DNA of 64,000 nucleotides from Pseudonocardiales bacterium (GTDB lineage Bacteria > Actinomycetota > Actinomycetes > Mycobacteriales > Pseudonocardiaceae). This document shows, one piece after another, positions 4,465-7,960 of this stretch; position 1 is the first letter of the stretch, and every line of letters begins with the position of its first letter. A model generated the notes under the pieces. That model ran no database searches and was not told the origin of the DNA. It saw nothing but the letters and a program-made list of their open reading frames with translations. The DNA is taken from positions 1 through 64,000 of the forward strand of contig JAFATA010000042.1 of assembly GCA_019244165.1 (NCBI GenBank). The letters are read 5' to 3'. The translations under genes were made by a program, and so were the position numbers.

Positions 4465-4776
4465 ATGAACCGAGCGGGTCGTAGTCTGCGCGTTTACCAC
4501 CAGGACGGTGTTGGTGGCGCAACGTCGTGGCTGGTGCTGATGGCCTCGCCCAGGGCGGTCCGCTCCAAGTGGGTCAACTGCGAGGTCGCCTGGTGGCTGG
4601 AGAACAAGTCCCCGCAGCGGTTGCTCGTGGTGCTCACCGAGGGAGAGTTCGTCTACGCCGACGACGCTGCGGACGGCGCCACCCGGGGGATCGTTTGGGT
4701 ACCCGCCCAGGACCCGGCCTCGCTGAACTTCTACCAACGCGCCGGCTGGGACCCCCTCAGCCTCACCCTCACCTGA
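4465..4776 (+). pseudogene. Chimeric pseudogene: TIR-domain fragment joined to GNAT 3' end
   Basis: Residues about 20-70 read SWLVLMASPRAVRSKWVNCE, then VAWWLENKSPQRLLVVLTEG and EFVYAD. This is the middle of an actinomycete TIR domain (strand, SPxAxxSxWVxxEV helix, then LLxVLTxGE). From position 4684 the same frame continues as RGIVWVPAQDPASLNFYQRA, which is the 3' part of the GNAT gene at 339-893. It lacks about 22 codons and ends LSLTLT-stop. Both source genes are truncated and joined in frame over 103 codons. A functional product is unlikely because the TIR lacks its first strands and catalytic region. Confidence 0.7.
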
Positions 4777-4784
4777 CCGGAGCA

Positions 4785-4846
4785 GCCATTCGGAGCCGAA
4801 TGGCGGTTCGCGCACCCCCGGAAAGCGCATTTCGGCTCCGAATGGC
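4785..4846. repeat. Palindromic repeat pair, left side
   Basis: A 20-bp palindrome with 9-bp arms, GCCATTCGG-AG-CCGAATGGC, lies at 4785-4804. A second, slightly imperfect copy in the opposite orientation (centre CT) lies at 4827-4846. The starts are 42 bp apart. The pair sits between the TIR/GNAT pseudogene and the AbiEi/DUF559-like gene. It resembles a REP-type element; the arms would also form RNA hairpins. Confidence 0.85.
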
Positions 4847-4921
4847 GCGAGCTTGTGGATAACTTGGGCTGGCTGTGGATGGACGTTTGAGGGGGAGGGC
4901 GCGTAGCGGCACGGTTACGGT

Positions 4922-5797
4922 ATGGCACGGGAGAACAAGCTCCGGGAGCCGACGCCCGTCTTCAAGGGCACTGATGCGGTGCTAGCCGGCACGCTGACCC
5001 GCGGTCACCTGCGCGGGCCGATGGTGCAGCGGCTGTTCCAGGGCGTTTACGCGCTGCGGGGTGAGCCAATGACGCATGAGCTGCGCTGCGCAGCCGCGGC
5101 ACTCGCGCTGCCACCTGAAACGGTGATCACTGGCAGGTCGGCGGCTGGTCTGTGGGGCGTGCCGTTGGCCCGGGCCCAGGATTGCGTCCAGGTCGCAGTC
5201 CCGGACAGCACCCGCATCGCTCGGCGCGCCGGCCTGGACGTACGGCGGACCTTGGTCCGAGCCGACGAATGCACGCCGTGGTCCGAAGTCGCCGTGGCGA
5301 CTCCACTACGGACTACCCTCGATCTGCTGCTCGGCCAGCCGCTACCGGACGCCGTCGCCGATCTCGATGCCGTGCTGCGAGCCGGTCTCGTGGCATTACC
5401 GCAGGTCGCGACGCTAGTTGCGGAACGCTCGGACAAAGGCATCGTGCTGGCTCGCCGCGCCGTGCAGTTGGCCGACCCGAGGGCGGAATCCCGACCAGAG
5501 TCGCGGGTCCGGGTCTGGCTCGAGTTGGATGGCCTGCACCCCGAGCCGCAGTACTGGATCGAGGACTCGACCGGCCGGCTGGCCCGGCTCGATCTGGCTT
5601 TCCCCGAGCACCAAGTCGCGGTGGAATACGACGGTTCGTGGCGGGACGGCGAACATTGGGCGCTCAACCGGGATCGGGACCGGCTCAATCGGGTGCAGGC
5701 CGCCGGTTGGGAGATCGTGTTCGTGACCGCCCAGCTACTGCACGACCCCGCCCGCATGGTCCACGCAGTTCGCGCTGCCCTCGCCCGACGCAGCTGA
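4922..5797 (+). CDS. AbiEi-like antitoxin-domain protein with DUF559 (Vsr-like nuclease) C-terminus
   Basis: A 291-residue protein. Residues about 15-80 resemble the AbiEi winged-helix region (LTRGHLRGPMVQRLFQGVYA, then ITGRSAAGLWGVPL), which in true systems represses a toxin operon. Residues about 190-285 form a DUF559/Vsr-like PD-(D/E)xK fold: E193, then ARLDLAFPEHQVAVEYDG with D224 and E235, then RDRDRLNRVQAAGWEIVFVT. This combination is common in actinobacteria, usually as an orphan gene with no AbiEii toxin, as here. A role in DNA metabolism or defence is inference. Paired palindromes flank the gene on both sides. Its 3' end converges on dapB. Confidence 0.75.
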   Translation: MARENKLREPTPVFKGTDAVLAGTLTRGHLRGPMVQRLFQGVYALRGEPMTHELRCAAAALALPPETVITGRSAAGLWGVPLARAQDCVQVAVPDSTRIARRAGLDVRRTLVRADECTPWSEVAVATPLRTTLDLLLGQPLPDAVADLDAVLRAGLVALPQVATLVAERSDKGIVLARRAVQLADPRAESRPESRVRVWLELDGLHPEPQYWIEDSTGRLARLDLAFPEHQVAVEYDGSWRDGEHWALNRDRDRLNRVQAAGWEIVFVTAQLLHDPARMVHAVRAALARRS

Positions 5798-5811
5798 TCG
5801 CGTCACAGACC

Positions 5812-5873
5812 GCCATTCGGCTCCGAATGGCAGCCCGAAGGGACCCAAAAACTGCTATTCGGCTCCGAATGGC
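5812..5873. repeat. Palindromic repeat pair, right side
   Basis: GCCATTCGGCTCCGAATGGC lies at 5812-5831, and a copy with one changed base (GCTATTCGG left arm) lies at 5854-5873. Their starts are again 42 bp apart. Both have the CT centre, so they share one orientation. They fill the space between the convergent ends of the AbiEi/DUF559-like gene and dapB, so they may also act as a two-way terminator. Confidence 0.85.
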
Positions 5874-5883
5874 AGGGGACGGG

Positions 5884-7960
<2,077 letters not shown>

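Follow-up and report, generated by a model that had tools for sequence, protein, structure and literature searches.

The window, i.e., the whole stretch of 64,000 nucleotides of Pseudonocardiales DNA that was analysed, contains a gene at 4922–5797 on the plus strand, which encodes a protein of 291 aa and has a twin-palindrome element on each side. The upstream element (4781–4850) consists of an exact palindrome at 4785–4804 with the centre AG, and a second one at 4827–4846, which reads GCATTTCGGCTCCGAATGGC, has two mismatches in the left arm and the centre CT. The downstream element (5808–5877) includes an exact palindrome at 5812–5831 and a copy with one mismatch at 5854–5873 (GCTATTCGGCTCCGAATGGC), both centred on CT, and sits between the stop of the bracketed gene and the stop of the convergent dapB (5884–6678, minus strand), the anchor gene for the between-species comparison of this locus. 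The other neighbour of the bracketed gene is a short TIR/GNAT-like gene remnant. The short ORF at 4465–4776 looks chimeric, with a weakly TIR-like N-terminal part (under the cut-off) and a C-terminus that resembles the last part of a GNAT-like ORF at 216–893, as if, possibly, the GNAT 3′ end had been duplicated or the gene had been interrupted between 893 and 4640.

The upstream element, when folding as a single strand, gives one long hairpin (DNA, z −5.7), and the hairpin of the downstream element has a z of −4.9. With up to three mismatches allowed, the chance expectation for the window is 0.06 palindrome matches against the four observed, and none of 100 shuffles of the window gave four. 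The sequence-only reading had claimed that GCCATTCGG occurs four times, which held partly: the four positions were right, but two of the four copies are imperfect. Its second claim, an exact 42-bp start-to-start period in both pairs with 22-bp spacers of unlike sequence, was confirmed in full.

The structure predicted for the bracketed protein (mean pLDDT 88.9) comprises an AbiEi-type DNA-binding/antitoxin-fold half (approximately residues 3–185) and a Vsr/I-Bth0305I-type nuclease half (approximately residues 190–291). In this predicted structure, residues 190–291 matched the catalytic domain of the homing endonuclease I-Bth0305I (3r3p) with a Z of 12.9, NGO0050 with a Z of 11.7 and Vsr (1cw0) with a Z of 10.4, and residues 3–185 matched the AbiEi antitoxin 6y8q with a Z of 8.1 over 176 residues. 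The profile match of the protein to 3r3p had an E-value of 0.008 and its match to the PADLOC AbiEi models an E-value of 1.7e-9; the family models concur (MTES_1575/DUF559 and AbiEi). Moreover, the acidic residues E193, D224, D237 and D251 are invariant among 15 family members. The C-terminal half is, thus, predicted to have the fold of an EDxHD/Vsr-type nuclease catalytic domain and the N-terminal half an AbiEi-type fold, whereby both the catalytic activity of the former and the DNA binding of the latter are inferred. For AbiEi, binding to a pair of 23-bp inverted repeats with bending of the DNA is reported (PMC7319586), and this repeat length is near the arm length of the window elements. The same genome has a second homologue (L219, G000:C76:23789–24548), present as two overlapping pieces in different frames and probably broken; no matching elements were found on its flanks.

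The palindrome is dispersed in the genome of the window (G000, 3.7 Mb), where 13 exact copies of its 14-bp core were found and none of the reversed control. With mismatches allowed, it was paired at nine of ten places, every pair at exactly 42 bp (contigs C2, C6, C7, C25, C26, C57 and C61 plus the two pairs in the window), the lone unpaired palindrome being on C55. The genus, known as far as seen here solely from metagenome-assembled genomes, was sampled with 11 genomes, of which the named ones are Pseudonocardiales MAGs. Across this sample, 57 of the 61 distinct neighbour pairs were spaced at 41–42 bp, some forming triples, in a search that permitted 27–57 bp. Exact elements numbered 13, 45 and 34 in the genomes with the cognate gene and 0–7 in the other genomes of the genus. 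In a relative (G008), all 16 sites in 784 kb were intergenic at a coding fraction of 0.78, with the genes called by a simple codon model. The spacers vary, yet subfamilies with related spacers occur, e.g., GGTCACAGGACCCTCGCC in several G000 copies. A spacer of this type was also present in one Streptosporangiaceae MAG contig (L072:3478–3533), whose element is near-identical to the G000 subfamily, spacer included, which might mean that the element was transferred from one family to another or that the contig was misbinned.

In the ATTCGG family, the variable positions flanking the core showed no covariation, either within the palindrome or between the two palindromes (59 pairs), a pattern more in keeping with the recognition of half-sites in duplex DNA than with base pairing that is conserved. 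Selection on an RNA hairpin was rejected for this family, since these positions covary neither locally nor across the long hairpin. A viral origin was rejected as well, because no paired palindromes were found in viral contigs and the protein has no phage match, and so was a plasmid origin, with a single weak plasmid match, to a homologue. Matches to the paired pattern in Prevotella and Hydrogenedentota proved to be tandem arrays of 19–21 bp and, hence, unrelated. One Prevotella MAG (L058, L060, L077, L085 and L094) has several arrays, each made up of three ATTCGGTACCGAAT-like palindromes at a 21-bp period, which have no relation to the system.

The orthologues in G008 and G010 are flanked on both sides by the same element type as the window gene. 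Other homologues are bracketed by GCAGTCTGNNNNCAGACTGC pairs, unlike the window element, in G007, by CCGATATGNNNNCATATCGG pairs in G008 and G009, and by still other arm types in G001, G003, G004, G006, G008 and G010. A family profile recovered approximately 95 homologues in 198 Actinomycetota genomes. For the bracketing score, the 350 bp before each gene were compared with the 350 bp after it, and the threshold was the 99th percentile of a null in which the two flanks came from different genomes. This threshold was exceeded, with matching elements on both sides, by 63 of the 93 testable family genes across Actinomycetota, and in most of the 63 the match was an inverted-repeat element of approximately 60 bp. 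Matching flanks were absent in about a third of the distant homologues (93 testable). In an unbiased scan of the 546 predicted genes of G008, four exceeded the threshold, and ranks 1, 2 and 3 were taken by the three family members, the chance of which is 1 in 2.7e7. Bracketing is, therefore, a general property of the gene family and no coincidence. Among 32 bracketed genes of the order-level group, more similar proteins have more similar elements (Mantel r 0.36, p 2e-4), and cognate specificity between gene lineages and arm types is thereby shown as an association.

The gene flanks also predicted dispersed copies. A CAGTCTG palindrome read off them occurs in 129 copies in G007 and 82 in G004 and is missing from G000 (reversed control 0), and a CCGATATG family obtained in the same way has 22–30 copies in each of G004, G005 and G008; both element families tested within the genus, thus, turned out to be dispersed. 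These two unrelated palindromes likewise pair at 42 bp, so that the spacing is a feature of the system as a whole, independent of any one sequence. Outside the genus, the element GAGCAGACGC...GCGTCTGCTC, taken from the flanks of one gene, had 55 copies in one complete genome from a different family within the same order, and 49 of the 50 listed copies were exactly 56 bp long (45–70 bp allowed). The interiors of this family vary but remain self-complementary, i.e., covariation is present, unlike in the ATTCGG family, and whether there is a common mode of recognition (duplex dyad or hairpin) is, consequently, unsettled. In the 56-bp elements of G189 (e.g., L316, L320 and L323), the outer 10 bp are constant and the inner arms change compensatorily. 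In a genome of a third family of the same class, a single copy of the predicted element was present in addition to the two brackets. G004, a 98% complete assembly with its 82 CAGTCTG copies (e.g., L122), yielded no cognate gene; either a recent loss or an assembly gap at the repeat could account for this.

The history of the locus could be followed downstream of dapB, which is present in all 11 genomes of the genus. The element-gene-element arrangement occurs in G000, G008 and G010. G001 and G005 each have one solo element, G009 has a half element and G002 an element remnant; G004 and G007 are empty at this place, G006 has an element of a different family, and in G003 the region is cut off by the contig end. 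Element and gene, thus, vary in presence and absence and decay between species. The lower element numbers in the absence of the gene resemble the decay of REPINs after RAYT loss. No target-site duplication was seen, where only one dispersed copy was compared in detail with a clean counterpart lacking the element; the ambiguous alignments L122, L146 and L148 were left out of the orthologous-flank comparison.

Our best reading, in which we have moderate confidence, is a REPIN/RAYT-like system with an AbiEi-Vsr nuclease fusion as the cognate protein. The element family, its dispersion, the fixed geometry and the association between gene and element are shown, while protein binding, DNA bending, cutting and the copying mechanism are inferred, no binding, cleavage or transposition having been observed. 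The four palindromes are two copies of a dispersed extragenic repeat bracketing the gene for what would be its own cognate protein. Each element is made of two inverted arms with centres 42 bp apart and, in the family of the window, each arm is itself a 26-bp dyad. Two protein units may occupy the two arms in a cooperative manner, on the same DNA face and separated by four helical turns, as modelled on AbiEi with its bent DNA; the nuclease domains would thereby come to sit on the element or close to it. The element would be nicked or cut there, probably while extruded or single-stranded, and the subsequent repair would copy elements into new intergenic sites; recombination between the two flanking elements would let gene-plus-element units be gained or lost. 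With an arm sequence of its own for each gene lineage, several such systems might coexist without cross-talk. The sequence-only reading had suggested either a REP-type mobile pair or paired protein sites, and both suggestions are supported by the tests; its proposal that the enclosed protein could recognise the palindromes also fits them, with the actual binding still an inference. Its refuting outcome, random spacing without a link to the gene family, was checked and the opposite was seen, namely a fixed spacing and bracketing throughout the family. The RAYT-like transposase it had recommended looking for is absent from the genus, and the bracketed gene takes that place.

The main rival, unlikely but not excluded, is a genome-wide regulator or chromosome organiser, in which the enclosed protein binds its palindrome pairs at dozens of places between genes and regulates its own expression, with nothing being mobile. 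The fixed 42-bp spacing and the dyads lacking covariation resemble duplex protein sites, and AbiEi proteins autoregulate on paired inverted repeats (PMC7319586). However, the copy number ranges from 0 to 45 or 129 inside one genus, a single locus shows the gain, decay and loss of sites (solo and empty states), the elements flank the gene on both sides instead of only at the promoter, and the nuclease half is conserved. A later regulatory use of the elements remains possible, being compatible with this evidence. It is also improbable that the gene is a free-standing homing-type selfish gene, whose nuclease spreads the gene together with its flanks, the solo elements being scars or targets that are not copied independently. 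The closest relative of the nuclease half is indeed the homing endonuclease I-Bth0305I, and solo and element-gene-element states exist at one locus. Against it, each family has dozens to 129 solo elements per one cognate gene, the spacer subfamilies among the solo copies of one genome suggest direct duplication of elements, and the protein lacks a phage match and has almost no plasmid match.

The reading of the elements as transcription terminators or insulating hairpins flanking the bracketed and other genes is very unlikely. Their intergenic position and strong hairpin potential speak for it; nevertheless, neither window element has a U-tract terminator signal, the exact arm sequence is common to the left and right of one gene and different between genes, element length and spacing are fixed, and, among the 546 genes, matched brackets single out one gene family. 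Classical REPINs moved by a RAYT (Y1 HUH) transposase, with the nuclease gene as a bystander, would explain why inverted palindromes form REPIN-like doublets between genes. This explanation is virtually excluded: no match to Y1_Tnp (PF01797) was found in the 11 genus genomes, whereas control genomes were positive, and the brackets go with the nuclease family.

The preferred system has much in common with REPIN/RAYT (REPtrons) and the TIR-flanked TIRYT genes (PMC3116915, PMC3733652), which likewise have short intergenic doublets of inverted palindromes with near-constant spacing, copy numbers from tens to hundreds, several independent types within one genome and a cognate gene flanked by the same elements. 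In contrast to REPIN/RAYT, the protein has an AbiEi-type DNA-binder and a Vsr/EDxHD-type nuclease instead of an HUH tyrosine transposase, and the GTAG tag was not seen on the arms; as the defining Y1 transposase is absent, the system is not a REPIN/RAYT member. The AbiEi antitoxins (AbiE type IV toxin-antitoxin; Rv2827c) have the same N-terminal fold and bind paired inverted repeats of approximately 23 bp (PMC7319586), a likeness to the paired arms, but the window protein is fused to a nuclease half, and its elements flank the gene at either end and are also dispersed. The EDxHD homing endonuclease I-Bth0305I and Vsr have the same C-terminal nuclease fold, whereas the window gene is not intronic, is bracketed by inverted-repeat elements and adds the AbiEi-type half. 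MITEs are also short, non-coding inverted-repeat elements scattered between genes; here, however, no transposase with matching ends was found, and the arms correspond to the elements that bracket a nuclease-like gene.

The partnership of this enzyme and element family matched no described kind that we found, although a broad kind of palindromic repeats with a dedicated enzyme would include it. No report of such a partnership was found in the open-access literature searched, and an earlier description elsewhere is possible. A bolder reading, which we regard as slightly more likely than not, is a phylum-wide class in Actinomycetota, in which AbiEi-Vsr fusions unrelated to HUH transposases make and maintain lineage-specific extragenic palindromes. 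Many actinobacteria have several 'AbiEi/DUF559 domain' proteins of unknown function, for which there is now a role that can be tested, along with a set of DNA sites at hand, and the naturally matched protein-site pairs are usable for specificity studies. Overall, the system would explain families of intergenic palindromes in actinobacterial genomes and, as an independent case of the REPIN/RAYT logic on a different enzyme, would offer a second system for asking why bacteria retain element-enzyme pairs.
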